Position numbers and translations under genes: made by a program | Part shown: positions 14,576 to 50,817 of the stretch, in pieces | How the letters are laid out: each line of letters starts with the position of its first letter | How positions within the stretch are numbered: the first letter of the stretch is position 1 | Origin: Desulfarculaceae bacterium | Lineage (GTDB): Bacteria; Desulfobacterota; Desulfarculia; Desulfarculales; Desulfarculaceae | Length of the DNA: 64,000 nt | Assembly: GCA_020444545.1 (NCBI GenBank) | Contig: JAHLKT010000003.1 | Location: forward strand, 372,001 to 436,000 | Direction: 5' to 3' | The notes under the pieces: model-generated | Seen by the model: the letters and a program-made list of their open reading frames with translations, nothing else | Databases searched by the model: none | What the model was told of the DNA's origin: nothing

Positions 14576-15529
14576 ATGTTCGCCACCCGGATCACCCAGA
14601 TGCTGGGCATCAAGCACCCCCTGCAATGCGGCACCATGATGTTTCTTTCCAACCCCGAGTTCGTGGCCGCCGCGGCCAACGCGGGCGTGCTGGCCTGCCT
14701 GGCCTCGGCCATGTATGCCGACGAGGCCTCGCTGGCAGAGGCCATCGCCCAGGCGCGCGGCCTCACCGACCAGCCCTTCGGGGTCAACCTGTCGCTGTTC
14801 CCGGGCCACGCCCCGGTGCCCGCCGAGCGGGTGCTGGAGATCACGGCCGAGGCCGGGGTGAAGCTGGTGGAGACCGCCGGGCGCAGCCCCGAGCCCCTGC
14901 GGCCGCGCATCCAAGAGGCGGGGCTTATGCACCTGCACAAGTGCGCCCGGGTGCGCGACGCGCTCAAGGCCCAGAAGCTGGGGGTGGACCTGGTGGCCGT
15001 GGTGGGGGCCGAGTGCGGCGGCCACCCCAGCCCGGAGAACGTGAGCACCTTGGTGCTGGCCCCCCAGGTCACCGCCGCCCTGGAGGTGCCGGTTATCGTG
15101 GGCGGCGGCTTCTGCGACGGCCGGGGCCTGGTGGCCGCCCTGGCCCTGGGCGCGGACGCGGTGCTCATGGGCACCCGCTTCATGAACACCGTGGAGTGCC
15201 CGGCCCACCCGGCCGTAAAGGAACGCCTCATCGCCGCGCAATCCAACCAGACCATGGTGGTGCAGCGGGGCATCGGCAGCGGCATCAGGGTTTTGGACAA
15301 CCACTGGGCCCGGCGGGTGCAAGAGCTGGAAGAAGGCGGCGCGGGCCTGGAAGAGCTGATGCCCTACATCTCGGGCAAGCGCACCGGCCAAGCCTGGCAG
15401 AGCGGCGACCCCGACGCCCTGGTGGTCTGCGGCCAGGTGGTGGGCAGCAGCCAAAGCACCCCGACCATAGCCGAGCTGGTGGAGCAGATCATGGCCGAGG
15501 CCGAGGCGGTGCGGGCGCGTTTGGCTTAA
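14576..15529 (+). CDS. Nitronate monooxygenase (2-nitropropane dioxygenase family)
   Basis: FMN-dependent TIM-barrel oxidase of 317 aa. The frame opens at 14507 inside the previous gene, but ATG 14576 has an AAAGGAG site 7 nt upstream and starts MFATRITQMLGIKHPLQ, the usual N-terminus of the family. The phosphate-binding and active-site segments VVGAECGGHPSPE, VIVGGGFCDGRGL and GADAVLMGTRF are present. The family oxidises alkyl nitronates such as propionate-3-nitronate; some members act instead in enoyl reduction or thioester metabolism. The stop codon overlaps the stop codon of the convergent PEP-synthase-like gene (shared TTAA at 15526-15529). Confidence 0.9.
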   Translation: MFATRITQMLGIKHPLQCGTMMFLSNPEFVAAAANAGVLACLASAMYADEASLAEAIAQARGLTDQPFGVNLSLFPGHAPVPAERVLEITAEAGVKLVETAGRSPEPLRPRIQEAGLMHLHKCARVRDALKAQKLGVDLVAVVGAECGGHPSPENVSTLVLAPQVTAALEVPVIVGGGFCDGRGLVAALALGADAVLMGTRFMNTVECPAHPAVKERLIAAQSNQTMVVQRGIGSGIRVLDNHWARRVQELEEGGAGLEELMPYISGKRTGQAWQSGDPDALVVCGQVVGSSQSTPTIAELVEQIMAEAEAVRARLA

Positions 15530-18135
15530 GCTTTGGCCGCCTCGCCGGACTCCAGGCGGTTCAGGTCGTCCTCGATCTTCTGGCGATAGTAGGCCACGCG
15601 GCGAGGGTCGGCCATGACCATATCCAGCTGCCGAGTGTGCATGAGCAAGTAGCCCACCACCTTCACCCCATCCAGGATGTCCTCGGCCGTGGCCCGCTCC
15701 ACCCGGGCCCGCAGGTTGTCCTCGCTCATCTCCACCGCGAAGCCGCGATTCTGCAGGATCTCGCCCACAAAGCGCACCCGGGCCAAACGCCGAGCGCTGT
15801 CGGCCGCGCCTCCCTTGAAGGAAAAGCTCAGGTAGTTTTCCCGCCGCCGGGGCCCGGCCAGGGCCTCCACCGCGCAGAAGTGGAAGCCGAAGCGCGATTG
15901 CAGGTTCATGAAGTGGCGCGCGATCATGAAGTAGTTACGGTTGGCGTAGCGCGTCTTGACCCCAGTGGCCAGGTTGGGGTTGGCCGTGGCCTCGAAGAGC
16001 ACCGAGGCCAGGCCCCGCCCGCTCACCGCCGGGGGGCCCTCCCAGGGGATGATGGTCATGCCGTCCCACACCGCCAGCATGGGCGCGCAGGCGATGTCCT
16101 CCAGCTTGACGTACTTGCCGCTGATCTCGTGGCTGAAGCCGTCGTCCAGGTCCAGCACCCACCATTGCATGGGCACCTGGTAATGCAGCTGCTTGGCCGC
16201 GCGGCGCGGGAAGCGGTGCTCCTGGCCAAAGGCGAACATCTCCACCACGCTCTTCTCGTGGCAGAAGCGGGTGACGTCGTGCAGGGTTTGGGCCTTGGCC
16301 GGGTCGAAGTCGGGCGAGTCGGGGTCCAAGAGGGTCAGCGGCGCGATGATCTCCAGGGAGCGGCTGAGCAGGCGTTCCACCGGACTGCCCGCCAAAAGAC
16401 CGGGGCGCGGGGCGGCCTTGCCTTGCAAGTCCTCCACCCGGCCCGGATAGATGGCGCGGCCCGAGGCGTCCACCGTGACCGTATCGCCGTCCACCAGCTC
16501 GGCCAATTGCGGGCCCAGGCCGAACAGGGCGGGCACCCCGTACTCGCGGCACACCGTGGCCAGATGCCCGGCGGCTCCGCCCCGGGCCGAGACCACCGCC
16601 GCGGCCCGGCCGGCCAAGGCGGCCCAGCGGGGCGAAGGGCGCTCCAGGGCCAGCACCACGCCTGGGGCGAAGGTGAGCGCGTCGGCCTCCCGGTTCACCC
16701 AGTGCAGGGGCCCGGCCCCGGCTCCCAGGCTGGCCACGACCCCGCCGCGCAGCAGGGCCTCGGGGCGGGAGGCGCCGCCGTCGGTGGCGGAAGCCATGGG
16801 CGCGGCGCCGCCATCGGCCGGGCGCAAGGGGCGGCACTGCAAGAGCACCAGCCGCCCTTGCTGGTCAAAGGCCCACTCCACGTCCTGGGGCGTGCCGTAG
16901 TGCGCCTCCAGCCGCAGGGCCGCACGGGCCACCGCCCTTGCCTGCTCGTCGCTGAGGCAGGGCTCCTGGGCCCGCTCGCCGGTCAGCTCCAGACGGCAGA
17001 TACCCTCGTCGGCCAGGCAGACCAGCTCGCTCTCCTTGTCCTCCACCGTGCGGCTGATCACCGTGAGAGGCTCCTCGCGGCTCAACACGAAATGGTCGCC
17101 CGCCGCCTCGCCGTCCACCACCACCCGGGGCAGGCCCCAGGCGGCGGTGAGGTGCACCCTGCGGTCGGCCGGGTCCAGGGGGCTCACGCTGTAAGCCACC
17201 CCGCCGCTGACCCCGCCCACCATGGCCAGGCAGCCCACGGCCATGGCCAGCTGGTCGTCGCGCAGGCCGCGCATCAGGCGGTAGTGCATGGCCTGGGGGT
17301 TGAAGAAGCTGGCCGCCACCTCCAGGTAGGTGGAGGCCAAAAACTCGGGAGCCACGTTGAGCTGGGTGGCGTACTGCCCGGCAAAAGAGGCCTCGGCGCT
17401 GTCCTCGCCGATGGCGCTGGAGCGCAGGGAGACCCGCACCGGCCCACCCGCCTCGGCGGCCAGCTGGGCGTAGGCCTGGGCCAGGGCCCGCTCCAGCTCC
17501 GGCGGGAGCGGCGCGCTGGTGATGAGCTGGCGCAAACGGCTGCTCAGGGTGAACAGCTCGGCCGCGTTCTCCATGTCCGCTGCCTGTTGCAGGCGCGATA
17601 TCTCCGCGCCCAGGCCGCTGTGTTCCAGCAAGAGCCGCCAGGCCGCCGCGGTGATCACGAAACCCGGAGGCACGGTGAGGCCCAGGCGATTTCGCATCTC
17701 GCCCAGGTTGGCCATCTTGGCCCCGGCCTCGTCGGCCCGGGTTTGGTCCAGCCCCGCCAGGGGCAAGACAAGCTCGTCCCCGCCGGGGCGGGCCGTTGGG
17801 GCCAGGATGTCTTCCAGCTTGCCTTGGATCTGCTTGAGGCGGGGCAACAGGGCGGGGTACTTGCCCGGAGCCAGCCGCTCCAGCTGGGCGGCCATGGTGA
17901 ACACGCTCACCCCCAGGGCGGTGGCCCGGGAGCGCACAAAGGACATGCCGTAGACCCGGCCCCCCGCGGCGGCGGCCTCCATGTCGGCCATCAGCTCCAG
18001 GGCCTTGTTGTTGGCGGCCAGGAGCTTACGGAAGCTCAGGTAGCGGGCCTTGAACTCCTCGCTGAGCCCCGCCTGGTCGGCCACGGGCTCCTCGCCGCCC
18101 AGTAGCTCCTTGAGCTTGTCCCACCAGGCGGGCAC
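15526..18135 (-). CDS. PEP-synthase-like ATP-dikinase with unrecognised C-terminal domain, paralogue 1
   Basis: An 869-aa cytoplasmic protein. Residues 1-115 are a helical N-terminal domain; ~125-445 a PEP/pyruvate-binding (PPDK_N, ATP-grasp) domain with Lys in AGAKMANLGEM, LRSSAIGED, GGVAYSVSPLDP and the Mg-ATP motif PQDVEWAFDQQGRLVLLQCRPL; ~470-555 a swivel domain with the candidate phosphohistidine His524 in GGAAGHLATVCRE. The remaining ~300 aa (QVPMQWWVLDL, NPNLATG, GFHFCAVEAL, HTRQLDM) do not resemble the PEP-binding TIM barrel. It should therefore move a phosphate from ATP to His and on to an unknown acceptor. Start is GTG with an AGGCGG site, 11 bp after a receiver gene. It overlaps the nitronate monooxygenase stop. 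Annotation as PEP synthase would be misleading. Confidence 0.82.
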   Translation of the reverse strand: MPAWWDKLKELLGGEEPVADQAGLSEEFKARYLSFRKLLAANNKALELMADMEAAAAGGRVYGMSFVRSRATALGVSVFTMAAQLERLAPGKYPALLPRLKQIQGKLEDILAPTARPGGDELVLPLAGLDQTRADEAGAKMANLGEMRNRLGLTVPPGFVITAAAWRLLLEHSGLGAEISRLQQAADMENAAELFTLSSRLRQLITSAPLPPELERALAQAYAQLAAEAGGPVRVSLRSSAIGEDSAEASFAGQYATQLNVAPEFLASTYLEVAASFFNPQAMHYRLMRGLRDDQLAMAVGCLAMVGGVSGGVAYSVSPLDPADRRVHLTAAWGLPRVVVDGEAAGDHFVLSREEPLTVISRTVEDKESELVCLADEGICRLELTGERAQEPCLSDEQARAVARAALRLEAHYGTPQDVEWAFDQQGRLVLLQCRPLRPADGGAAPMASATDGGASRPEALLRGGVVASLGAGAGPLHWVNREADALTFAPGVVLALERPSPRWAALAGRAAAVVSARGGAAGHLATVCREYGVPALFGLGPQLAELVDGDTVTVDASGRAIYPGRVEDLQGKAAPRPGLLAGSPVERLLSRSLEIIAPLTLLDPDSPDFDPAKAQTLHDVTRFCHEKSVVEMFAFGQEHRFPRRAAKQLHYQVPMQWWVLDLDDGFSHEISGKYVKLEDIACAPMLAVWDGMTIIPWEGPPAVSGRGLASVLFEATANPNLATGVKTRYANRNYFMIARHFMNLQSRFGFHFCAVEALAGPRRRENYLSFSFKGGAADSARRLARVRFVGEILQNRGFAVEMSEDNLRARVERATAEDILDGVKVVGYLLMHTRQLDMVMADPRRVAYYRQKIEDDLNRLESGEAAKA

Positions 18136-18622: not shown

Positions 18623-18654
18623 CCCCGGACCGCCCGCCAAGGAGCGGCCCGGGG
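18623..18654 (-). terminator. Intercistronic terminator-like hairpin inside the signalling array
   Basis: Eleven-bp stem (arms 18623-18633 and 18644-18654, one G-U pair) followed on the minus strand by ACTTATTTTA. It lies between the 231-aa membrane protein and the receiver/PEP-synthase-like pair. It could terminate or attenuate transcription coming from the sigma-54 promoter upstream. Confidence 0.55.
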
Positions 18655-18660
18655 CGCGGT

Positions 18661-19356
18661 TCAGTGCTCCAGCTGATAGCCGGTTCCCTCGAACAGGTAC
18701 ATGACTCCGTAGCCGTACCACAGGGTGTAGATGACGTAGAACAGGAGGCTGATCACCACGATCAGCCACTTGTCACCGATGCTCTGGGGCTTGATGCCGT
18801 AGTAGTTGTAGCTCATCTCCACCGCCTTGGCCTGCACCGTCTTGGCGAACTTGGCCTGGGCAAAGGCCTTCTGGCGGTTGAGCGACTTCTCCAGAGCCTT
18901 GTAGGCATTCCACCAGGTGTAGAGCATCAGCTTGGGGTCCTTGCCTTCGTAGCGCGCGCTGAGCTTGGCCCCGTCGTTGTGGAACATGGCGTCGCTGTCG
19001 GCCAGGGAGGAGGCGAACACCTTGCCCAGGTCGCCCGACACCTTCAGCTTGGTCCCCTCGGGAACCGCCTTGGCCCCGGCCGCCGCGAACAGCAGCGCGG
19101 TGCGCGCCGCCATGCCTGTGTCACCCAGGTCCAGGGTGGCCTCCAGCTTGGCGCCGTCATACTTGGCCGCCTGCTTGCCCAGGTCGGGGATGTAGTAGGC
19201 CGAGTCCTTGGAAATGGAGTTGTAGAGCTGATCCAGGTAGTCCAGGCCGTTGTGGCCGTGGAACACCGGCATGAAGAAGACGATCAGCACCACCACGAAC
19301 ACCGCCACCATGATCAGACCGGCGGCCAGCTTGCCCTTCTTGTTCTTCTTGCTCAT
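18661..19356 (-). CDS. 231-aa bitopic membrane protein of unknown function
   Basis: I do not recognise this protein. It has a Lys-rich start (MSKKNKKGK), a transmembrane helix (about 10-30), a ~150-residue extracytoplasmic region rich in Lys, Ala and Asp with DLGDTGMAART and GTKLKVSGDLGKVFASSLAD, and a C-terminal hydrophobic helix (WLIVVISLLFYVIYTLWYGYG) followed by a short tail. Its ATG overlaps the stop of the TauE/SafE permease gene by 4 bp (ATGA), so the two are translationally coupled and probably act together. It may be an extracytoplasmic accessory of the transporter. Confidence 0.75.
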   Translation of the reverse strand: MSKKNKKGKLAAGLIMVAVFVVVLIVFFMPVFHGHNGLDYLDQLYNSISKDSAYYIPDLGKQAAKYDGAKLEATLDLGDTGMAARTALLFAAAGAKAVPEGTKLKVSGDLGKVFASSLADSDAMFHNDGAKLSARYEGKDPKLMLYTWWNAYKALEKSLNRQKAFAQAKFAKTVQAKAVEMSYNYYGIKPQSIGDKWLIVVISLLFYVIYTLWYGYGVMYLFEGTGYQLEH

Positions 19357-20681
19357 GACACCACCTCCTCGCCCAGGGCCGGGCCCGCCGGATGGGCCGC
19401 TCGCAGGGTGCGGGTGTTCTTAAGGAAGGTTCCGATGACCCAGACCGCGAAGCCTCCGATCACCGCGAAGAAGGCCCAGATGCCGATCTGGTCCAGGACC
19501 AGGACCACGTTCTTGGGCAGGTAGAACACCTCCATCTCCACCAGCTTGCCGGGCAGGGCGAAGATCCGGTTCATGAAACCGGCCAGGACCGCCATGGCGT
19601 AGAAGCCGCGGATGGTCACGCCGGGCACCACCTTGGTGACCATGGCCCCGATCTGGATGCCCAGCAGGGAGCCGATGAGCATGCCCATGGCCAGAGTGTA
19701 GAAGATGAAGCCGTAGATGGCGTATTGGCTGATGGCCGCGAAGCCGGCGGTGAACACGATCTGGAAGATGTCGGTGCCCACCGTGGTCATGGAGCTGACG
19801 CCCAGGGTGTAGACGAAGATGGGGAAGGTGAGGAACCCGCCGCCCACGCCCATGATGCCCGCCGCCAGGCCCACGATGAAGCCGCTGATGATCAGGAACC
19901 AGGCGCTTATGGCCCGGCCGCCGGGCACCAGGCTCTGGTCGAAGCGCACCATGGGGGGCAGCTTCATGCCTTGGAGCTTCTTGGGCAGGTTGCCCAGCTC
20001 GGCGCCCTCGCTCTTGCCGCCATGGGGCAGCTCGCAGGCCTCGGCGCTCTTGCGGCACTTGAGGAAGTCGCCCAGGGCATAGAAGCCCAGCCCGCCCAGC
20101 ATGATGGCGTACACCGTGGTGATGAAGGCGTCGGATAGCACCGGGTTGATCTCGTAGAGCACCCGATTGATCAGCCCGCCGCAGGAGGCCCCGCCGATGG
20201 CCCCTATGAGGAAGGTGGCCGCCAGGGCCACCGATACGTTGCCCAGCTTGCGGTGAATCACGCTGCCCATGATGGCCTTGGCGAAGATGTGGAACAGGTC
20301 GGTGCCCACGGCCAGGATGCCCTTGATGCCCGCGCTCATCAGGGCCGGGGCGATGATGAAGCCGCCGCCCGCGCCGATGCAGCCGGTGATGAGCCCGGCG
20401 CACAGGCCGATGAGGATGGAGGCGATGAAGATGCCGGTGGAGTAGAAAGCCGGGCTGTAGGCCTTCTTGCCGCCCAGCACGTCGGGCAGGTGGCTGCCCA
20501 CCGCCTGGCTCACCTGGTCGGCGAAGGCTATGCCCCCCAGGATTACCGGGATGAGCATCAGCCCGATGATAACGAGTCTTTTCTTGTCACCCATGATGGT
20601 GCGGGCGTTGTTTATCTCCCAGCGCGCGTGCGCCTGGGCCCCGGCCACCATGAATTGTCCCAACCCTTGTAAGAATCTCAT
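19353..20681 (-). CDS. TauE/SafE-family (TSUP) anion permease
   Basis: A 442-aa inner-membrane permease with two repeats of the TSUP fold. The first carries LITGCIGAGGGFIIAPALMSAGIKGILAVGTDLFHIFAKAIMG-type sequence near residues 90-140, the second LAAGIMGVGGGFLTFPIFVY near 275, each with the Gly-rich loop and G-T-D motif. Family members export or import sulfite, sulfonates, sulfoacetate or related organic anions. An N-terminal extension of about 75 residues carries an extra hydrophobic helix. It sits between two receiver genes and the 231-aa membrane protein, with the sensor kinase further upstream. Transport may thus be regulated by, or feed, this signalling cluster. The specific substrate is not known. 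Confidence 0.92.
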   Translation of the reverse strand: MRFLQGLGQFMVAGAQAHARWEINNARTIMGDKKRLVIIGLMLIPVILGGIAFADQVSQAVGSHLPDVLGGKKAYSPAFYSTGIFIASILIGLCAGLITGCIGAGGGFIIAPALMSAGIKGILAVGTDLFHIFAKAIMGSVIHRKLGNVSVALAATFLIGAIGGASCGGLINRVLYEINPVLSDAFITTVYAIMLGGLGFYALGDFLKCRKSAEACELPHGGKSEGAELGNLPKKLQGMKLPPMVRFDQSLVPGGRAISAWFLIISGFIVGLAAGIMGVGGGFLTFPIFVYTLGVSSMTTVGTDIFQIVFTAGFAAISQYAIYGFIFYTLAMGMLIGSLLGIQIGAMVTKVVPGVTIRGFYAMAVLAGFMNRIFALPGKLVEMEVFYLPKNVVLVLDQIGIWAFFAVIGGFAVWVIGTFLKNTRTLRAAHPAGPALGEEVVS

Positions 20682-20746: not shown

Positions 20747-21127
20747 CTAGCTTCCTTGCGAGGCGTGGATGCGCTCCAACAGGTCACTCAATTCGCAAGG
20801 CTTGGTCAGGTAGTCGAAGGCTCCCAGGGCCATGCCCTCGCGCGCCGCCTGCTCGCTGCCGTGGCCGGTGAGGATGATGACCGTCAGGCCGGGGTCCATC
20901 ATCTTCAGGACCTTGAGGACCTCGATGCCGTCCATGTCCTCCATCTTCAGGTCCACCACCGCCACGTCGAAGCTCTGGGCGCGGGCCACGCGGACCGCTT
21001 CGGCTCCGCTGCTCACCGGCGTCACCTCCAGGCCCCGCCGGGTCATGCGCTTTTGCAGCACCTCCAGGTAGCCCAGCTCGTCGTCCACCAAGAGAATCCG
21101 GAGCCCCTCGCCTCCTCGACCGCCCAT
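20747..21127 (-). CDS. Stand-alone response-regulator receiver
   Basis: A 126-aa CheY-like domain only. Intact acidic pocket (ILLVDDE), phospho-acceptor Asp (VAVVDLKMEDMDG), Thr (ILTGHGS) and Lys (LTKPCEL). There is no output domain, so it must act by protein contact or phosphotransfer. It follows a second receiver by 9 bp and precedes the TSUP permease by 65 bp in the kinase-receiver-receiver-permease operon. Confidence 0.92.
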   Translation of the reverse strand: MGGRGGEGLRILLVDDELGYLEVLQKRMTRRGLEVTPVSSGAEAVRVARAQSFDVAVVDLKMEDMDGIEVLKVLKMMDPGLTVIILTGHGSEQAAREGMALGAFDYLTKPCELSDLLERIHASQGS

Positions 21128-21136
21128 GAGCGCCTC

Positions 21137-21583
21137 CTAGGTCTCCCGCCGGAGCGCGTGCATGCGCACCCGCGCGTCCAGAATCTTGGCCTCGTGGGCC
21201 CGCTTCTTGGCCACCGCCTCGTTGACCTTGGCCAAGAGGAGGTCCATCTCGCAGGGCTTCATGAGGTAGTCGTAGGCCCCGCTTTTCATGCCTTCGATGG
21301 CGCTTTCCACCGTGGCGTGGCCGGTGAGCATGATCACCTCCACATTGGGGTGGGCGCCCTTGATGGCGGCCAGGGTCTCCAGGCCGTCCATGCCGGGCAT
21401 CTTCACGTCCAGGATGACCACGTCGGTGCGGCTGGGCCCGCCGCTGTCCAGCTTGGCCAAGGCTTCCTTGCCGCTGAAAGCGGTGTCGACGGTCAACTCC
21501 CGCTTGGCAAGGCGCTTGGCCATGGTCTCCACGAAGGGGACTTCATCGTCCACCAGGAGAACCGAGGGGTTGATATGAATCAT
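21137..21583 (-). CDS. Stand-alone response-regulator receiver
   Basis: A 148-aa protein made of one receiver and a basic C-terminal tail of about 25 residues (KKRAHEAKILDARVRMHALRR). VLLVDDE, VVILDVKMPGMDG, MLTGHAT and LMKPCEM hold all phosphorylation residues. It lies 37 bp after sensor kinase 1 and 9 bp before a second receiver. It is the most likely direct partner of kinase 1 by position. Confidence 0.92.
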   Translation of the reverse strand: MIHINPSVLLVDDEVPFVETMAKRLAKRELTVDTAFSGKEALAKLDSGGPSRTDVVILDVKMPGMDGLETLAAIKGAHPNVEVIMLTGHATVESAIEGMKSGAYDYLMKPCEMDLLLAKVNEAVAKKRAHEAKILDARVRMHALRRET

Positions 21584-21620: not shown

Positions 21621-23345
21621 TTAGCTCTGCGCGGCCGGTTCAGGGGCCGGGGCCGCGCCGGATTGGGATATGGCCGGCAGCAGGACCACGAAGGTGGAGC
21701 CCTTGCCCTTGGCGCTGGTCACCTTGATCTCGCCGCCGAGCTTGTTGATGATGCCGTAGCAGATGGACAGGCCCAGGCCGGTCCCCTGCCCCACCGGCTT
21801 GGTGGTGTAGAAGGGGTCGAAGATGCGGGCCAGGTTGGCCGGGGCGATGCCCATGCCGGTGTCGGTGACGGTCAGCTTGACCCAGCCGTTTTCCGGGCTG
21901 CTCTTCACAGTGACCACCCCGCCCTCGCTGTCGATGGCGTCCACCGCGTTGTTCACCAGGTTCAGAAGCACCTGTTGCAGCTCGCTGGGGCTGGCCGCCA
22001 CCCGGGGCAGGCCCTTGGTGAGCTCGGTTTCCAGGCGCACCCCGGCGTAGCGCGACTTCTGGCTCACCAGGGCGATCACCTCCTCCGCCAGGCCGTTGAG
22101 GCTCACTTCCTTCACGGTGGGGTCGGTCTTGCGCGCGAAGCTGAGGAGCTTGTGGGTGATCTGCTTGCAGCGGTTGCCCTGCTCCTGGATCTGCTGCACC
22201 GCCCGCTGGATCTCGGCAAGGGTCTCCTCGCTAAGCGGCCCTTCCTCGCTCATGAGGTCCTCGATCCAGCCGGCCTCCTCCACCATGATGGCCACCGGGT
22301 TGTTGATCTCGTGGGCGATGCCCGCGGCCAGCTCTCCGATGGAGGCCAGCCGACCCGCTTCAATCATCTTTTCGTTCATGGCTTCCTTCTGGGTGTCGGC
22401 CTCGGCGATGCGGTTTACCAGCCGCCGGGCCAGAAGTAGGGAGACCAGGATAATGACGATGCCGCCCAGCACGAAGATGGCGATGGCCATGCGCTGGGCC
22501 CCGAGCAGCAGGCTGAAGGCGTCGGCCTTCTCCTGCTGGGCGCAGATGACCCAGGAGCCGTTCTTCAGCGGCGCGGCGGCGTAGATCATCTCGCGGCCCA
22601 CGGGATCGGGGCGCTGCACGATGGTCACCTTGCCGCCGTCCAGGGGCTGCCGCAGCAGCTCGCGCCAGGCCCCGCCGGAGAGCGCCACTTCCTGGCGTGG
22701 CTTGGTCTGGAAGGAGCCCGAGCGGTCCAGGATGAAGGCGAAGCCGGTCTCGCCGATGCGCAACTTTTCCACCAAGGCGTTGAAGGCCTCGAAATCGATG
22801 GTGGCCTTGAGCAGCCAGTCCAGGCCCATGAGCCGCTTCTTGGCAGCCACGATGAAATGCGGGCTGCCGCGCAGGCCGGCAAAGACGTTGGAGATGAAGT
22901 GTTCGCCCGCCTGGGCCTGCTTGAACCACTGGGCCGTGGCGTAGTCGGCCCCGGTGAGGTTGAAGGGCCCGGCGTAGGCCACCTGGCGGCCCTGGGGGTT
23001 CACCAGCCCCAGGTCCACGAACACGCCGCCGTATTCCTCGCGCAGCAGGCTGAGCTTGGCGCGCAGGAAGGCGGGGTCGTTGAGGGTGACCACGGGATAG
23101 GAGCGGGCCAGCACCCGGATGTCGGCCAGGCGGTCGGTGAGAAAGGCATCGATGGTGCGGCGGTGCTTGTTGATCAGCACCTCCAGATGCTCCTCCACCT
23201 TGCTCTGGTAGGCCCGGTCGAACTCGTAGAGGATGACCGCCCCGGAGAAGATCAGGGGCACCAGCGAGACCACCATCACGAACAGCACCAGCAGGCGGGT
23301 CAGGGTGCGGTAATAGGCGGCGGGCCGGCCGTGGCTTTGGGACAT
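21621..23345 (-). CDS. Membrane sensor histidine kinase 1 (dCache-type sensor)
   Basis: A 574-aa sensor kinase. TM1 (about 16-40), an extracytoplasmic double-Cache-like domain (about 45-280, with FVDLGLVNPQGRQVAYAGP and ISNVFAGLRGSPHFIVA), TM2 (about 285-308), then a HisKA domain with the H-box GIAHEINNP near residue 346 and a HATPase domain ([27 protein letters not shown]). The sensor domain is clearly paralogous to that of kinase 2 (30140-28482). dCache domains bind small ligands such as carboxylates or amino acids. A -24/-12 promoter lies about 40 bp before the ATG, so expression should need sigma-54 and an activator. It heads the operon running to the TSUP permease and perhaps beyond. Confidence 0.94.
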   Translation of the reverse strand: MSQSHGRPAAYYRTLTRLLVLFVMVVSLVPLIFSGAVILYEFDRAYQSKVEEHLEVLINKHRRTIDAFLTDRLADIRVLARSYPVVTLNDPAFLRAKLSLLREEYGGVFVDLGLVNPQGRQVAYAGPFNLTGADYATAQWFKQAQAGEHFISNVFAGLRGSPHFIVAAKKRLMGLDWLLKATIDFEAFNALVEKLRIGETGFAFILDRSGSFQTKPRQEVALSGGAWRELLRQPLDGGKVTIVQRPDPVGREMIYAAAPLKNGSWVICAQQEKADAFSLLLGAQRMAIAIFVLGGIVIILVSLLLARRLVNRIAEADTQKEAMNEKMIEAGRLASIGELAAGIAHEINNPVAIMVEEAGWIEDLMSEEGPLSEETLAEIQRAVQQIQEQGNRCKQITHKLLSFARKTDPTVKEVSLNGLAEEVIALVSQKSRYAGVRLETELTKGLPRVAASPSELQQVLLNLVNNAVDAIDSEGGVVTVKSSPENGWVKLTVTDTGMGIAPANLARIFDPFYTTKPVGQGTGLGLSICYGIINKLGGEIKVTSAKGKGSTFVVLLPAISQSGAAPAPEPAAQS

Positions 23346-23381
23346 CGCGTTTCTCCCCTGAGATAGTCGGTTTGAGTAATG

Positions 23382-23396
23382 GCAAGGGCTGTGCCA
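23382..23396 (-). promoter_or_regulatory. Sigma-54 (-24/-12) promoter of sensor kinase 1 operon
   Basis: On the minus strand TGGCAC (23396-23391), five bases, TTGC (23385-23382): an exact match to the core TGGCAC-N5-TTGC. Predicted transcript start is near 23371, leaving about 25 nt of leader with a GGGGAGA ribosome site before the ATG at 23345. The gene next upstream encodes a sigma-54 activator. Confidence 0.85.
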
Positions 23397-23500
23397 AAAG
23401 GCACCATCTCCGGCTCCGCAAGACGGGGAGGCAATTTAGACGATGATTACGGGGTCTTGGCGGAATGCCCCATGTTCAGGGGATGAAAGGAAAGCGGACG

Positions 23501-23565
23501 CTGTCGGGCTTGTTCCCATGCGGCTGTCGGATTCCTTTACAGAGTGCAAAGTTTTCCGACAGCCG
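23501..23565. promoter_or_regulatory. Candidate upstream activator site: CTGTCGG repeats with an 11-bp dyad
   Basis: CTGTCGG occurs at 23501-23507 and 23524-23530, and inverted at 23556-23562. The last two form an 11-bp perfect inverted repeat (23521-23531 and 23555-23565) with a 23-nt loop. It lies about 105-180 bp upstream of the -24/-12 promoter, the usual distance for an NtrC-family enhancer, and just after the activator gene. It could instead be a hairpin at the 3' end of that gene, but no T-run follows. Confidence 0.55.
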
Positions 23566-23582
23566 CGCGGGCAAAAAAGCGG

Positions 23583-24990
<1,408 letters not shown>

Positions 24991-24998
<8 letters not shown>

Positions 24999-27621
24999 CG
25001 CGCTCTCCCGCCAGGGGGTCCTGCACGCTGTGCGCCGGGGCCGGCGGGCCCAGCTTGCCCAGGTCGGCCGCTATCTTGGCGCGGTAGAACTCCACCCGCT
25101 CGGGCCGGGCCATGATCATGTCCAGCTGGCGGGTGTGCATGGTCAGATAGCCCAGGGACTTGACCAGGCTTAAGGTTTCATCGGCATCCCGGCCCTCGGC
25201 CCGGGCCAGCAGGGCCTCGCCCTTGATCACCGCCTCCATGCCCAGCCCGGCCAGGATTTCCTCCAAGAAGGCCAGGCGGGTGCGCCGGCGGGGTGCGTCC
25301 GCGGCTCCGCCCCTAAAGCAGAAGCTCACGAAGTTGCCCCCGGCCTGCCCCCCGGCCTCGGCCTCCAAGGAGGAAAAGTGAAAACCCAGCTGGGACTGCA
25401 TGTTCATGAAGGTGTCGGTGATCAGGAAGTAATTGCGCTCGGCCAGGCGGCCCTTGGCCCCGCCGCCCAGGCTGGGGCTGGCCGTGGCGGTGAACATCAC
25501 CGAGGCCATGCCCGCCGCGTCCAGAGCCGGCGGCCCGTCCCAGGGCACCTCGGTGAGCCCCTCCCACAGGGCCAGGAAGGGCGCGCACCAGATCTCTTCC
25601 AGGCGCACGTACTTGCCCTGGCTTTCGCCGCTGAGGCCGCCGCCCAGGTCCAGCACCCACCATTGCATGGGCACCTGGTAGTGCAGCTGGCGGGCGGCGT
25701 GCAGGGGGAAGTGCTCCTTGGCCGCCGCGCTGAACATCTCCTCCACCGCCTTCTGGTGGCAGAAACGGGTGAGGTCGTGCAGGGTGTGGCAGGCTTCGGG
25801 GATGAAGCCCGCGCCCTCGGGATCAACCAGGTTGAGCGGGGCGCACAGGGCCAACGCCTTGTTCAGCACCCGGCGGGTTGGGGTGTCTGGTTGGCCCTCG
25901 GCCAGGGGCTCGCGGCCGGGCAGGGCCAGGCGGCCCGCGTAGACCGCGCGTCCGCTGGCGTCCACCGTGACCTCCGCGTCCGGGGCCAGCTCGCGGGCCG
26001 ATGGCCCCAGGCCCAGGAGGGCGGGCACCGCGAACTCGCGGGCCACGCTGGCCAGGTGACCGGCCACCCCGCCGCGCACCGAGACCAGCGCCGCCGCACG
26101 GCTGAGCAAGGGAGCCCAGCGGGGCAATGGCTGCTCCACGGCCAGCACCTCGCCCTGGCTGAAGGCCACCGCGTCGCCGCCGGTGAGCACCCAGCGCAGC
26201 GGTCCGCCTCCCGCGCCCGGGCTGGCGCAGACTCCGCCGGTAAGCAGGCGCTTTTCCTCGGCCCCCACGGGCAGCTCGGCCTCGGTCCCTGCCGTGGGGC
26301 GGGGCAAGGGGCGGCATTGCAGGATGACCAGCCGCCCCGCCGGGTCCAGGGCCCATTCCACGTCCTGGGGCCCGCCGTAGTGCTGGTGCAGCTTGCGGGC
26401 CAGGGCCGCCAGCTCCAGGATCTTGTCGTCGCTCAACGAAGGCGCGGCCGCCTCAGCCTCGTCCAGGCCCTCGGGCAGCACGCCTTCCTCGGGCTGGCAC
26501 ACATAGCGGCGCGGCTTGATGGCCACCCAGCTGGCGGCCAGGCGCGGCGGGGAGCCGGGCTCCACCGCAAAGGAGTCGCAATCCCAGGAGCCGTCCACCA
26601 CCGCCTTGGGCAGGCCCCAGCAGGAGTTGATCAGCACCCGTTGGTGCTCCGGGTCCAGGGGATCGGCGCTGTAGGCCACCCCCCCGGCCACGGCCGGGAT
26701 CATGGCCAGGCAACCCACGGCCATGGCCGCGTCCTCGTCGATGAGGCCCATGCGGCGGCGATAGGCCACCGCCGCCGGGCCGTAGAGGCTGGCCGCCACC
26801 GAGAGATAGGCCTCCTGCCAGTGGGCCGGGTCCACGTTGAGCTCGCTGGCAAACTGCCCGGCAAAAGAGGCGCCGGGCGCGTCCTCGCCCTGGGCGCTGG
26901 AGCGCAGGGCCAGCCTGAGCGGCGCGGGGGCCTCGGCCCGGAGCGCCTCCAGGCCGCGCTCCACCGCCTCGCTAAGTTCGCACGGTATCTCGGCGGTGGT
27001 GAACAGGCCCTGGATGCGCGAGCACACCGCCAAGAGCCTGTCGGTCTGCTCCAGGTCCGCGCTTTGCAGCAGGCGGGCGATTTCCTCGGGCAGGCGGTTG
27101 TGCTCGGCCAGGCGGCGAAAGGCCACGGTGGTGATGACCATGCCCGGCGGCACCGGCAGGCCCAGGCCCCCGGCCAGGGAAGACAGGGCGGCCATCTTGG
27201 GTCCGGCCAGGGACTCGTCCGCCGCGCTCTCTTGGCCCAGGGGCACCACCAGCGGCCCCTCGCCTGGCGCTGCCTCGGGGCCCAGGGCCTGATCCACTTG
27301 GCCGCGCACCTTGGCAAAGGCCTCGGCCAGGCCGGGGTAGCGGTCCGGAGCCAGGGCGTTCAGGCCCTGGATCATGCGGTACACGCTGACCACGGTGGCC
27401 GTGGCCCGCCCGCGCACAAAGGCCATGCTGGGGCTGTGGGGCCCGGCCTGAGCCTGCTCCATCTCGGCGATGGCCTCCAGGGCGCGCTGGTTGGCGGCCA
27501 GCAGATCGCGGAAGCAGCTATAGCGGGCGGAAAACTCCGCCCGCAGCCGCCGGGCCGTGTCCTGGTCCGGCGGCGGGGAGCCCTGGGCGAACCAGCGCCG
27601 AAAATGCTCCACCAGGTTCAT
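24991..27621 (-). CDS. PEP-synthase-like ATP-dikinase with unrecognised C-terminal domain, paralogue 2
   Basis: An 876-aa paralogue of 15526-18135, with the same order: helical N-domain (1-115), PPDK_N ATP-grasp (~125-455: AGPKMAAL, LRSSAQGED, GGVAYSADPLDP, PQDVEWALDPAGRLVILQCRPL), swivel domain with His522 (GGVAGHLASVARE) and the ~300-residue C-terminal domain sharing YQVPMQWWVLDL, NYFLITDTFMNMQSQLGFHFSSLEAE, GGAADAPRRR and LTMHTRQLDMIMARP. ATP-binding and phosphohistidine residues are intact, and the PEP-binding barrel is absent. It follows a receiver by 9 bp and its stop overlaps the start of the sigma-54 activator. It may hand a phosphoryl group to, or be controlled by, the neighbouring receivers; that is inference. 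Confidence 0.82.
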
Positions 27622-27630
27622 GGCACGGCC

Positions 27631-28050
27631 TCAGATGCCCTCGCCCGCGCCATGCTCGGCCGCGTCGATCTCTCCCACCACCCGGCGCCGGTCAAAGGCC
27701 TCCATGACCCGCTCGATGAGCTCGTCCAGCTTCACCGGCTTGATCAGGTAGTCAAAGGCCTCCAGGGCCAGGCCCTCCACCCCGGACTCCACCGAGGCGT
27801 GGCCGGTCAAGAGGATCACCTCCACCCTGGGGTGGCGTTTCTTGATCTCGCGCAGGGTGTCGATGCCGTTCATGCCCGGCATCTTCACGTCCAAGACCAC
27901 CACGTCGGCGGGCTCGCGGGCCAAGTGCTCCAGGGCGGCCTCCCCGCTGGTCACTCCGCTGGCGTCCACCATGCGGCGCTTTAGGCGGCGCACCAGGGAC
28001 TCCAGGAAGTCCACCTCATCGTCCACGATAAGAACCTTGAATGCAGTCAT
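27631..28050 (-). CDS. Stand-alone response-regulator receiver
   Basis: A 139-aa single receiver domain with intact VLIVDDE, VVVLDVKMPGMNG, LLTGHAS and LIKPVKL motifs and a short acidic tail. One base separates it from the receiver before it, and 9 bp from PEP-synthase-like paralogue 2 after it. No DNA-binding or enzymatic output is present. Confidence 0.92.
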   Translation of the reverse strand: MTAFKVLIVDDEVDFLESLVRRLKRRMVDASGVTSGEAALEHLAREPADVVVLDVKMPGMNGIDTLREIKKRHPRVEVILLTGHASVESGVEGLALEAFDYLIKPVKLDELIERVMEAFDRRRVVGEIDAAEHGAGEGI

Positions 28051-28051
28051 C

Positions 28052-28471
28052 TCACTCTCCTTGGACCGGGGCGCTGCCCGGCTCCCCGTCCTCCCCGCCC
28101 CGGCGGCAGGCCTCCTCGATGCAGCGGATCAGCTCCTCGATGGGGGTCGGCTTGATCAAGAATTCAAAGGCCCCCAGTGCCAGGCCTTCCATGGCCGCGC
28201 TCACCGAGGCTCGGCCGGTCAAGAGGATCACCTCCACCCCGGGGTGCAGGCGCTTGAGGTGCCCCAGGGTGGCGATGCCGTCCAATAGCGGCATATCCAC
28301 GTCCAAGACCACCACTTCCGGGCTCCAGTCCTCCACGATGCGCAGGGCCTCCCAGCCGCCATAGGCCGGACGGGCCCACAGGCCGCGCAGCTCCAGGCGC
28401 TCGGCCAGGGCGGCGGCGAACTCGCGGTCGTCGTCCACGGTGAGGACCTTGATGGTTCTATGCATGATCAT
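28052..28471 (-). CDS. Stand-alone response-regulator receiver
   Basis: A 139-aa receiver with [27 protein letters not shown] and LIKPTPI motifs, all phosphorylation residues kept. It lies 10 bp after sensor kinase 2 and 1 bp before another receiver, repeating the kinase-receiver-receiver order of the other module. Confidence 0.92.
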
Positions 28472-28481
28472 GGCTGTCGCC

Positions 28482-30140
28482 TTACGGGGCCTCGGGGGCC
28501 CGGTTGGGCAGGCGGATGACGAACACCGCGCCCATGCCCGGCTTGCTCTCCAGCTCCAGGGAGCCGCCCAGGCGTTGCATGATGGCGTGGCTGATGGACA
28601 GGCCCAGTCCGGTGCCCTGCCCCGGTGCCTTGGTGGTGAAGAACGGGTCGAAGATGCGCTCGGCCAGGTCGCGGGGCACGCCCGGCCCGCTGTCGCAGAC
28701 CCGCACCGCCAGCTCGTTACCCTCCACCCCGCTGGTCACGCGCACCCAGCCGCCCTGGCCCGCCGCGTCCAGGGCGTTGTTGATCAGGTTGAGCGCCACC
28801 TGCTGGAGCTGGGCCCGGTCGCTCTGCACCAGGGGCAGGGCCGGGTCGAGCATCAGCTCCACTCGCACGTTGTTGAACAGGGCGTCCTTTTCCACGAAGG
28901 AGTAGGTCTCGCGGATCAACTCATTGACGTCGGTGCTCTCCAGGTGGGGTTCCATGCGCCGGGCGAACTTGAGCATGCGGTGGGTGACGTTGCGGGCCCG
29001 CTCCACCTGGTTCTGGATGCGCCCCAGGTTCTCGCCCACCACCTCGCCTTCCTCCAGTTTGGCCAGCTGCTCGGCGTCCAGGATGTCCTGGGCCTCGCCG
29101 GCCAGCTCGCTGATGGCGGCCAGGGGGTTGTTGATCTCGTGGGCCACCCCGGCGGCCATGCGCCCCAGGGAAACCAGACGGGCCGAGTGGGCCAGCTGGG
29201 CGTCCAGGGCGGCGCGCTCGGCGTCGTTGGCCTCCAGCCGCCGTATGAACAGGCGCACCATGATCAGCACCGCCGCGATGATGAACAGGCTGGCCAGGCC
29301 CAGCACCCCCAGCTCCACGTTGCGCGCCAGGTTCAGCGGCCCCAGGATCTCCTTGGGGTTCTGGTCGATGACCAACAGCCAGTTGCCGTGCTCCAGAGGG
29401 GCGCAGGCGCGGATCACTTTGTCGCCCGCCGCGTTGACCCGCTCCTTCACGGTTATACCCGGCGGCACGGCGCGCAGGTCCAGATCGGCCTTGTCCATCA
29501 CCTTGCCGCCCAGGCGCGAAGGCGTTTGCAGGCGGCCCTGCTTGTCCACGATGTAGGCGTCGCCGGTCTGGCCCACCTGGGCGGTGCGCACCAGGCGGTT
29601 GAACACGTCCGAGTCGATGGTGGCCCGCAGCACCCAGCTCTCGCCGCCGTTGTCGTGCTTTACCGCGATGACGAAGTGGGGCACCTGGCGATAGCCCAGG
29701 AACACGTCGCTGATGTACACGCCCTTGAGCATGGCTTGCTGAAACCAAGGGGCGTCGCGGTAGTTTTGCTGCTTGAGCAGATAGGGCCCCACATAGGCGC
29801 GGTGGTCGCCGTTTGCGTCGATGATGCCCAGGTCCACGAAAGACCAGGAGCGCCGGTTCATTATCGAAAGCAGGCGGCTCAGGGCGGCCTCGTTGCTCAG
29901 CTGGGTCAGGCGGGCCGAGTGGGCCAGCACCTCCAACAGAGCGGTGCGTTCGGCCAAAAACAGCTCGATGGCGCTGGCCCGGTTCAGGGCCCGGATGCGC
30001 AGCTCTTCCTTGAGCGTCTCGGTGTTGGCGTAGTTGAAGTAATAGTAGAGGCTCAGGCCCAGGCCGTTGAGGGGCAACAGCGCCACCAGCAGGGCCACCA
30101 CGGTCATGCGGCGCGAGAGGTTGGCATAGGGGTGGTTCAT
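28482..30140 (-). CDS. Membrane sensor histidine kinase 2 (dCache-type sensor)
   Basis: A 552-aa sensor kinase. The frame stays open far upstream as antisense of another gene; ATG 30140 is taken because it overlaps the stop of the preceding gene (ATGA), has an AAGGGGAAGG site and begins [24 protein letters not shown], a normal TM1. The extracytoplasmic domain (about 35-265) shares [19 protein letters not shown] and [20 protein letters not shown] with kinase 1. TM2 is near 270-292, the H-box GVAHEINNP near 333, and HATPase motifs LINNALDAA and [10 protein letters not shown] follow. It arose by duplication with kinase 1 and heads receiver, receiver, PEP-synthase-like 2 and the sigma-54 activator. 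Confidence 0.94.
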
Positions 30141-32662
30141 GCGCCTTCCCCTTGCTGGCTGGGGTCCAGGTTGTAGTTCTTGGCGGCAAAGGCCCGGGCC
30201 AGCCAATCCACCATGGGCCGGCCGCTCATGAGCATGTCCATCTGGCGGGTGAACAGGATGAGGCGGCCCAGCTCCTCCAGGATGGCGGCGGTGGACTCGG
30301 CGGGGTGCTTCTTGAGGAAGGCGCTCACCTGGTCGCCCTGGCACTCCACGCTGAAGCCCAGCTCGCTTAGCAGGCGCTCGATAAGCTCGCAGCGCAGACG
30401 GCGGCGGTCCTCGGTGGCCGCGCCGCCGTGGAAGCGGAAGCTGATGTAGTTGTCGTTCTGCTGGGGACCGCAGAAGCTGTCCAGGGCGGTGTAGTGGTAG
30501 CCTACCCGGCAGTTGAAGTTGAGATACTCCGCGCTCACGATGGCGTAGGCCCTCTGGCCCATGTCCCTGAGGCCGCCGCTGCCGTTTGGCGGGTTGAGCA
30601 GGGTGCCGCTGAACACCGAGGCCAGGCCCTTGGCGCTGATGGGCCGGGGCTTGGCCCAGTCCACCGCCGGGTCGGTGAGGCCCCGGATGAGGGCCGCGCC
30701 CGGCGCGCTGAGTACCTGTTCCGGGTCCACCGCCTTGCCGCCCGCGCCGTTCAGGCCGCCGCCCAGATCGATGAGCCACAGCTCGAAGGGCAGGCGCGCC
30801 TCCAGGCGGCGGGCCTCGCCGCCGGCCTGCTGGCCCACCAGATCGCCCAGGCGGAACATCTCCTTGAAGCTCATCTCGTGCACCAAGCGGATGATGTCGT
30901 GGAAGGTGAGGCAGTGCCCCGGCGTGAAGCGCGGGCTGCGCGGGTCGGTTAGGTTGAGCTTGGTGATGAGCCCGGCGGCCTGGTGCCACTCCGGCTTGGG
31001 CAGTGGCCGCTCGCGGCACACCGTGGCCTCGGTCCGGCCGCCCAGGAGCGCCTCCACCCGCCCGGCGTAAACCCGCTTGCCGCCGGCGTCCACGGTGACC
31101 ACCTGCCCCGGCGCAATTATCCGCGTGGCGTTGCCCGTGCCCACCAGGGCGGGCACGCCCATCTCGCGGGCCAAGGAGGCCAGGTGCCCAGCCGCTCCGC
31201 CCACGTCGGTGATCACCGCCGCCGCGCGGGCCAGGGCCGAGGCCAGCACCGGCGAGGTGTTCTTGGCCAGAAGCACCGCGCCGGTGGGGAAGGCGGGCAG
31301 GTCTTTTTCGTTGCCCACCAGCACCACCGGGCCGCTGCCCGCGCCGGGGCGCGCAGTCTGGCCGCCCTCCAAGAGGGGCTGCTGACTCACTTGCGGAGGC
31401 GGTGCCTGAGCGGCCAGCACCTGCAAGGGCCGCGACTGCAGGATCATCATGCGGCCCGTGGGGGTAAGGGCCCACTCCACGTCTTGGGGACAGGTGAAGC
31501 GCTCCTCCAGGTCCAGGCCCATGCCGGCCAGTTCCAGAGCCTGCCCCTCGCTCAGGGGAGGGGTGCTGTCGGCCGGGCCGTTGGCCGCAAAGTCCAGGAG
31601 CATGGGCGGCCGCTCCCGCTCCAGGCTGTAGATGTCCGGGTCGGCCGAGCCGTCCACCAGCTTGGCCCCCAGGCCACGCACCGCGCTAATGAGCAGGGGG
31701 CCTTTTCCGCCGCCCAGGGGGTCGGTGGTGTACATCACCCCGCTGGCCTGGGGCGCCAGCATGGGCTGCACCAATACGGCCATCTCCGCGTCCTGGTCCA
31801 GCAGGCCGCGCTGGCGGCGGTAGACCACCGCCTCGGGGGCGTAGAGCGCGGCCACCACCTCGCGGTAGGCCTGGGCCACGTCGCCGGGCGGCACCTGGAG
31901 CACGCTGCGGTAGAGCCCGGCAAAGGAGCTGGAGGTGTCCTCGCCCACCGCGCTGGAGCGCAGGGCCAAGAGTCCCCCGTTGCCCGCGGCGGCCAGGGCG
32001 CGGGCGGCCCGGGTCAGCTCCTGTTCCAGCTCGTCCGGCAGGGACGCGGCCAGCACCTTGCGTTGCAACAGGCGGCTGAAGGCCTCCACCTCGCCGGGGC
32101 CCGAGCCCTCCATGAGCATCAGGGCCTGGCGCAACTGGCCGCCCAGGCCGGTGTGTTCCATGAAGCGGCGGAAGGCGGTGGTGGTGACCACGAAGCCCGG
32201 CGGCACCGGCAACCCGGCCGTGATCAGCTCGGCCAGGTTGGCCGCCTTGTTGCCCGCCAGATGGGCCGAGCCCGCGGGCAGGCTCTCCAGGGGAGCGATG
32301 AGTTCATCGCCACCCCGGCCGCCGCCCTCTTCCAAAATCGTGTCGATCTTGCCCCGGATGTTGTTGAACACCGGCATGAGCGTCTGGTAGCGCCCACCGG
32401 AGATGCTGTTCAGGTGGCGGATCATCTTGTAGACCTTGGCGCTGGCGGCGATGTAGCGGCTGCGCAGGAAGTCCAGGCCCACCTGCCCGCCCTCGCCCAG
32501 CTGCTGCTCGATCTCCGCGATGATGGCCAGCACCTCGTTGTTGGCCCTCAGCAGGTACTTGAACTCGCGGAAGCGCAGCTTGAGCTCGCCGGGGGGAGTC
32601 TGGTCCGCCCCCTTCTTGTGGCCGCCGCCTCGGCCCAGCAATCTGCTCAAGCGCTTGACCAT
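30137..32662 (-). CDS. PEP-synthase-like ATP-dikinase with unrecognised C-terminal domain, paralogue 3
   Basis: An 841-aa member, the most divergent of the three. Helical N-domain (1-115); PPDK_N domain (~125-425: AGNKAANLAEL, ALRSSAVGEDTSSSFAG, SGVMYTTDPLGGGKG, PQDVEWALTPTGRMMILQSRPL); swivel domain with His493 (DVGGAAGHLASLAREMGVPALVG, closest of the three to canonical PEP-utilising enzymes); C-terminal domain with LPFELWLIDLGGGLNG, NPPNGSGG, YHYTALDSFCGP, FHGGAATEDRRR and LFTRQMDMLMSG. The catalytic residues for ATP and His are intact and the TIM barrel is absent. Start ATG with a GAGG site, 13 bp after a small membrane protein. Its stop overlaps sensor kinase 2 by 4 bp, the tightest link in the array between this family and a kinase. 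Confidence 0.82.
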   Translation of the reverse strand: MVKRLSRLLGRGGGHKKGADQTPPGELKLRFREFKYLLRANNEVLAIIAEIEQQLGEGGQVGLDFLRSRYIAASAKVYKMIRHLNSISGGRYQTLMPVFNNIRGKIDTILEEGGGRGGDELIAPLESLPAGSAHLAGNKAANLAELITAGLPVPPGFVVTTTAFRRFMEHTGLGGQLRQALMLMEGSGPGEVEAFSRLLQRKVLAASLPDELEQELTRAARALAAAGNGGLLALRSSAVGEDTSSSFAGLYRSVLQVPPGDVAQAYREVVAALYAPEAVVYRRQRGLLDQDAEMAVLVQPMLAPQASGVMYTTDPLGGGKGPLLISAVRGLGAKLVDGSADPDIYSLERERPPMLLDFAANGPADSTPPLSEGQALELAGMGLDLEERFTCPQDVEWALTPTGRMMILQSRPLQVLAAQAPPPQVSQQPLLEGGQTARPGAGSGPVVLVGNEKDLPAFPTGAVLLAKNTSPVLASALARAAAVITDVGGAAGHLASLAREMGVPALVGTGNATRIIAPGQVVTVDAGGKRVYAGRVEALLGGRTEATVCRERPLPKPEWHQAAGLITKLNLTDPRSPRFTPGHCLTFHDIIRLVHEMSFKEMFRLGDLVGQQAGGEARRLEARLPFELWLIDLGGGLNGAGGKAVDPEQVLSAPGAALIRGLTDPAVDWAKPRPISAKGLASVFSGTLLNPPNGSGGLRDMGQRAYAIVSAEYLNFNCRVGYHYTALDSFCGPQQNDNYISFRFHGGAATEDRRRLRCELIERLLSELGFSVECQGDQVSAFLKKHPAESTAAILEELGRLILFTRQMDMLMSGRPMVDWLARAFAAKNYNLDPSQQGEGA

Positions 32663-50716: not shown

Positions 50717-50817
50717 GGATTTTCTCCTTGGGGTCACTAGGTTAAGACAACCGCATGGCCCGCCTCATGTCAATGGGCTATTGGGGGCCCAGTCCCGGCC
50801 GCCGCCCCCCGAAAGGA

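Follow-up and report, generated by a model that had tools for sequence, protein, structure and literature searches.

A predicted single-target sigma-54 circuit in a Desulfarculaceae bacterium and its activator without a phosphoacceptor aspartate

Related regulators and layout of the locus

The sites of NtrC and NifA are spaced as in tandem TGT-N11-ACA sequences. It is with activators of this type that the present locus has most in common, namely an AAA+ domain carrying GAFTGA, a Fis-type helix–turn–helix (HTH) and tandem TGT-N11-ACA sites approximately 150 bp upstream of a -24/-12 promoter. Unlike the NtrC/NifA type, however, the locus has a single operator per genome within the genus, the receiver of its activator is degenerate, and its two sites meet head to head in one long palindrome. 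For Desulfovibrio, the part of Kazakov et al. (2015; PMC4641369) drawn on here describes TGT/ACA half-sites spaced 9, 11 or 12 bp, as well as activator genes that adjoin their promoters. Atypical receivers are also on record: FleQ is phosphorylation-incompetent (PMC10723142), and Rajeev et al. (2011; PMC3333781) report such receivers in DVU1063 (FlbD-like) and DVU0749. As far as the portions of these sources used here go, FleQ, DVU1063 and DVU0749 resemble the present activator in having a receiver without the phosphorylation residues and a retained output module; unlike in the FleQ group, there is here no flagellar sign, and the loss is confined to one family, the rest of the clade keeping the phosphosite. 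The same portion of Rajeev et al. (2011; PMC3333781) offers the lead that the activator may be the counterpart of DVU0946/DVU0539. The neighbouring genes resemble, by annotated content only, the Desulfovibrio 'nitrate cluster' (DVU0251–DVU0245/Dde_0597–0605), disruption of which leads to nitrate resistance (PMC4001038, in the part used here); in common are a TauE permease, a small hypothetical protein, a histidine kinase, a single receiver and a PPDK_N/PEP-mobile-domain protein. That cluster differs in also containing PtxB and a phosphatase, and no sigma-54 activator is among the genes listed for it in that source. In the open-licence literature on the module or on this type of activator, we recognized nothing that describes the circuit.

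The window, i.e. the whole stretch of 64 000 nt that was analysed, contains two gene blocks, A and B (Table 1). Block A begins with kinase 1 and is closed by a terminator-like stem at 18654–18623, after the gene for the 231-aa protein. Block B comprises a second TauE, two PPDK_N/PEP-mobile-domain proteins, kinase 2, two receivers and the activator, the stop codon of which lies where the preliminary description had placed it. The phosphosites are intact in all four stand-alone receivers of the two blocks. The activator contains a receiver, an AAA+ domain with GAFTGA and a Fis-type HTH, the domain content of an NtrC-type bacterial enhancer-binding protein (bEBP); among the best 25 of 77 NCBIfam matches none met the cut-off for a name. 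Three PPDK_N plus phosphohistidine-domain proteins are encoded in the region (15526–18135, 24991–27621 and 30137–32662, all on the minus strand); they keep the swivel histidine motif and have no recognized PEP-binding C-terminal domain, and in other genera the operator described below is followed by similar genes. Another sigma-54 activator-like gene is present in the window at 48971–50737 (minus strand; match at contig positions 421169–422011).

Table 1. Positions of the genes and putative regulatory features within the window
Feature	Position	Strand	Remarks
-24/-12 sigma-54 promoter, TGGCACAGCCCTTGC	23382–23396	-	Exact match; conserved in genus
Third CTGTCGG copy	23501–23507	+	Absent from congeners' conserved columns
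Perfect inverted repeat, 12 bp	23520–23566		Arms 23520–23531 (GCGGCTGTCGGA) and 23555–23566 (TCCGACAGCCGC); outer half-sites of both operators
Operator site I (predicted), CTGTAAAGGAATCCGACAG	23524–23542	-	TGT-N11-ACA at 23525–23541; kept in six congeners
Phylum-wide core, TTTGCA-CTC-TGTAAA	23536–23550	-	One mismatch to consensus TTTACA-N3-TGTAAA
Operator site II (predicted), GTGCAAAGTTTTCCGACAG	23544–23562	+	TGC-N11-ACA at 23545–23561; site I is stronger and better conserved
231-aa membrane protein	18661–19356	-	Last block A gene; neighbour of TauE in other loci also
TauE/SafE-family permease	19353–20681	-	Block A
Stand-alone receiver A2	20747–21127	-	Phosphosite intact
Stand-alone receiver A1	21137–21583	-	Phosphosite intact
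Kinase 1, dCache sensor histidine kinase	21621–23345	-	First block A gene
NtrC-type sigma-54 activator (bEBP)	23583–24998	-	GAFTGA intact; degenerate receiver (Asp to Ser52, Lys to Leu103)
PPDK_N plus phosphohistidine-domain protein	24991–27621	-	Stop overlaps activator start by 8 nt
Two stand-alone receivers	27631–28471	-	Block B; phosphosites intact
Kinase 2, dCache histidine kinase	28482–30110	-	Block B; start approximate

Putative promoter and operator upstream of kinase 1

The exact -24/-12 string that the preliminary description had reported before kinase 1 is present, and is the sole exact match within the window. The transcript start predicted from it lies at approximately 23371, and its 3' end is 36 nt from the ATG of kinase 1 (23345), at which there is a good ribosome site. 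By itself the exact string is weak evidence, since shuffling of the window gives an expectation of 0.17 copies, with at least one copy in 16 of 100 shuffles. Across the whole genome there are 18 exact matches versus two for the reversed pattern. The promoter has GG at -24, GC at -12 and exact spacing, and is retained by relatives, being kept as TGGCACANNNNTTGC in all seven activator-bearing loci of the genus; RpoN is encoded by all eight genus genomes. The spacer between kinase 1 and the activator (23346–23582) yielded no sigma-70-like promoter. In the organism's own genome, 12 of the 18 exact TGGCAC-N5-TTGC sites lie less than 1 kb from a sigma-54 activator match (39 matches; counted by hand), so that an activator gene adjoining a sigma-54 promoter is a common layout there.

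The genus sample consisted of eight genomes, of which seven (the window strain and six congeners) carry the orthologous activator and one, G002, does not; identity of the window activator to the congeners' orthologues is 75–87 %. Activator, operator element, promoter and kinase 1 follow one another directly in G001, G003, G004, G005 and G007. A gene is inserted behind the activator in G006, where the element (approximately 970 nt from the activator stop) and the promoter remain beside kinase 1. In this last genome (locus L195) the activator frame is open far upstream (785–1025 aa), possibly because the gene is fused or because a long alternative frame exists, and Pfam detects the usual domains only. 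Comparison places the promoter and a 38-bp operator at matching spacing in all six activator-bearing congeners, and the columns invariant between the window and five congeners read GT..A.....T..C....TGTAAA....TCCGACA and TGGCACA....TTGC; the remainder of the spacer has diverged among the congeners. Across the congeners the element is seen to consist of two 19-bp sites, CTGTAAA-N5-CCGACAG and a facing CNGTCGN-N5-TTTACAG, each with TGT-N11-ACA spacing. Sites I and II of the window are separated by one base, with their centres 20 bp apart. An exact match to site I is found nowhere else in the organism's own genome; site II reads GTGCAAA-N5-CCGACAG in the window and is poor in G003. The palindrome arms are the outer half-sites, and the inner half-sites, TTTACA-N3-TGTAAA, sit in the palindrome loop. 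Since site I includes an inner half-site of this core, a dimer may read either TTTACA-N3-TGTAAA or TGT-N11-ACA. The only IHF site in the loop is a candidate with two mismatches.

The preliminary description had taken as the operator a dyad of CTGTCGG arms, formed by two of three copies of this word (23501, plus strand; 23524, plus strand; 23556, minus strand). Both the copies and the inverted repeat are indeed present, the repeat being perfect over 12 bp rather than 11 and extending one base further, to 23566. When the spacer was dinucleotide-shuffled 1000 times, only two of the shuffles gave an inverted repeat of at least 11 bp and four contained one 7-mer three times within 62 bp. What had been overlooked are the conserved half-sites between the arms. 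The repeat is perfect in the window strain only, among the seven folded, the three-copy pattern is local, and the third copy, not kept by the congeners, is probably incidental. The suggested genome scan for CTGTCGG dyads revealed no regulon of such dyads in the organism's own genome. As a regulon word CTGTCGG was rejected, being without enrichment in the window (11 found versus 12.5 expected), and CTGTAAA-N5-CCGACAG with up to three mismatches occurs 109 times genome-wide versus 128 times for the reversed control. The location of the dyad at enhancer distance, on the other hand, stands, with the predicted operator approximately 150 bp upstream of the promoter.

A sequence-only model of the 42-bp element (R1), trained on the seven activator-bearing genus sequences, finds the site once per genome in all seven of these genomes, which are its own training set (E 1.9e-7 to 3e-11); its matches are accompanied by an opposite-strand palindrome echo in six genomes. 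R1 has no match in G002, which is without the activator, and three additional weak matches elsewhere in G001 and G007 (E 0.07 to 3.9). No second operator or strong sigma-54 site was found within the window upstream of block B.

The search of the phylum covered 395 genomes, 76 of which have a close activator orthologue at E≤1e-135, and 60 loci were examined at the 5–8 kb scale (58 outside family f1, the family of the window activator, together with G008 and G010). In the 600 bp that follow the activator, TTTACA-N3-TGTAAA is present at 26 of the 60 loci if up to one mismatch is allowed and at 27 if up to two are, compared with 0/60 at one mismatch and at most 8/60 at two for each of six control palindromes of equal length. 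The core (up to two mismatches) is absent from these 600 bp in 33 of the 60 loci, and some loci carry it elsewhere, for example upstream of the activator. In the aligned loci an A-run comes after the core, and then a GACA half-site at +15 to +18, giving TGT-N11-ACA again; the deeply conserved part of the operator is TTTACA-N3-TGTAAA with one GACA half-site. A -24/-12-like site lies within 420 bp of the core in 24 of the 26 loci, and the distance from core start to promoter-like site is 109–125 bp in 16 of these 24 and 154 bp in the window.

A second model (R3) was built from 23 of the 26 operators, none of them contributed by family f1. Among 60 chosen genomes it matched, at E≤0.1, 36 of the 39 with the activator and 2 of the 21 without it. 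Thirty of the positive genomes are outside the family, and 22 of these had supplied training sites; six of the remaining eight matched, as did eight of the nine family members. In the organism's own 4.38-Mb genome the window site (E 0.019) is the sole match at E≤0.1. R3 misses the site of G001, and its match in G008 differs from the site adjoining the activator there. Operator matches are strong in G048 (best E 8e-6), whose best activator-like protein is only 44 % identical, possibly because a contig is missing or because another protein reads the same site. The site of G029 is marginal (E 0.044). G046 was placed among the negative genomes and has a 52 % identical orthologue, with no operator match. 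At E≤0.001 many genomes outside the family hold two to five sites (five in G224, four in G326, three in G195; counted by hand) versus at most one in members of the genus, so the regulon appears to be reduced in the genus. The genes that follow the promoter elsewhere include those for PPDK-like proteins, for TauE together with the 231-aa protein, for kinase-1-like sensors accompanied by receivers, and for single receivers of the ADRNRHVREFLRREL type; in G010 a receiver is followed by a sodium:sulfate-symporter-type transporter. As the same types of gene stand behind the operator in other genera, the block A gene set is a recurrent target.

Loss of the phosphosite in the activator receiver

In the receiver of the window activator, EP, Ser52 and Leu103 replace the acidic pair, the Asp and the Lys. 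Comparison of orthologues establishes that the phosphoacceptor Asp is absent (Ser or Ala) in all nine members of family f1, and that DD, Asp and Lys are present in all 69 distinct orthologues outside it in an alignment that excludes six genomes with a match (G304, G377, G412, G108, G080 and G357). G010 is intermediate, with the Asp gone and the Lys retained. Family f1 forms one group in the tree (support 97–99, subject to a long-branch warning). The loss in this family is a new observation, of which the preliminary description was unaware. Receiver identity to 24 orthologues outside the family is 39 % versus 69 % for the AAA+ domain, which is 91 % identical within the genus and has GAFTGA intact. 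By sequence, the best solved matches of the receiver are PleD and NtrC1, and FleQ is absent among the best 60 of 123.

The genes next to the activator differ as well. In 66 of 70 rows from outside the family, no more than 150 nt separate the activator from the end of a kinase HATPase domain, a count in which L002 and G114 are probably one genome (identical proteins). The same holds for none of the nine inside the family, three of which (G004, G005 and G007) carry a gene for a hybrid kinase 90–120 nt upstream. The window activator is preceded by a PPDK-like gene, not by a histidine kinase, and so lacks both the acidic pair, Asp and Lys and the directly upstream kinase gene of a canonical two-component response regulator. 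With the phosphoacceptor Asp lost, the input is most likely of another kind, such as a ligand, a protein partner or the amount of the activator itself, and in this family the activator is probably switched on other than by aspartyl phosphorylation.

Alternative readings and the proposed circuit

In the window strain a hairpin begins some 15–18 nt after the activator stop and is very stable (-31.3 kcal/mol for 47 nt, z -9.4; -50.4 kcal/mol for a 106-nt stretch), which favours the view that the dyad functions not as protein-binding DNA but as RNA, in the form of a terminator or stabilizer hairpin closing the activator mRNA at its 3' end. This view fails, however, because the hairpin is strong in one strain only, the stem is without the U-run of an intrinsic terminator, and in G006 the element is found beside kinase 1, far beyond the activator stop. 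The congeners retain the sequence but fold into weaker hairpins (-5.3 to -14.5 kcal/mol, z -0.7 to -3.7), the hairpin is unlisted in a terminator scan of the window, and no Rfam match was found for the element as RNA; we consider the RNA reading very improbable. Alternatively, site and promoter may both be real and be bound by another of the approximately 39 sigma-54 activators of the genome, in which 39 activator-like matches were counted. G048, with operators and no close activator orthologue, could be cited in support, as could the TGT/ACA half-sites common to several Desulfovibrio activators in the part of PMC4641369 used here. Yet the site tracks the orthologous activator, with 36 of 39 positive versus 2 of 21 negative genomes matched (22 of the positives being training sources), and adjoins the activator gene across the phylum, and a different reader seems to us quite improbable. 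The divergence of the receiver, down to 39 % identity with other orthologues, might also be taken to mean that the activator is mainly a repressor or is decaying, with block A transcribed from another promoter. Given the conservation of its AAA+ domain and GAFTGA motif, the conserved promoter and operator, and a spacer in which no sigma-70-like promoter was found, we lend little credence to this explanation.

We therefore favour the hypothesis, to which we assign a probability of roughly 0.85 on the basis of sequence comparison, that the activator, the tandem operator and the sigma-54 promoter drive block A. Control of block A, which consists of kinase 1, two receivers, TauE and the 231-aa protein, would reside in the spacer. 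We infer that transcription needs sigma-54, the RNA polymerase waiting at 23396–23382, and that the activator (23583–24998) would bind the two adjacent 19-bp sites at 23524–23562 as two dimers and, once bound, loop over approximately 150 bp and open the promoter. As its operator is the sole one found in the genome, the activator is probably dedicated to the block A operon. The earlier proposal that the block B activator switches on block A is well supported in so far as it describes a single-target circuit, and conserved position, co-occurrence and a genome-unique site all speak for a sigma-54 promoter of kinase 1 read by the adjoining activator. The simple picture of phosphorylation by a block B kinase does not fit an activator without the phosphoacceptor Asp.

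It is tempting to speculate on how such an activator arose. Possibly, although we hold this with some doubt, it derives from ordinary kinase-paired regulators; in this family the phosphosite would have been lost once and the neighbouring kinase lost or changed, leaving one target operon and an input other than phosphorylation. Candidates for the switch would then perhaps be the phosphohistidine-domain protein co-translated with the activator, or the stand-alone, phosphorylatable receivers that the two blocks encode; if this history is true, the receivers of the target operon could feed back on the activator.

A guess made on one sequence has become a testable phylum-wide operator, and an uncharacterized family of activators is tied to TauE-type anion permeases. 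For work on physiology, a point of departure is provided by the Desulfovibrio nitrate cluster, which the target genes resemble. Orthologues with and without the phosphosite, which seemingly keep the same DNA site, form a natural before-and-after pair, and this pair is a good system in which to ask how an activator gets rewired away from its kinase.
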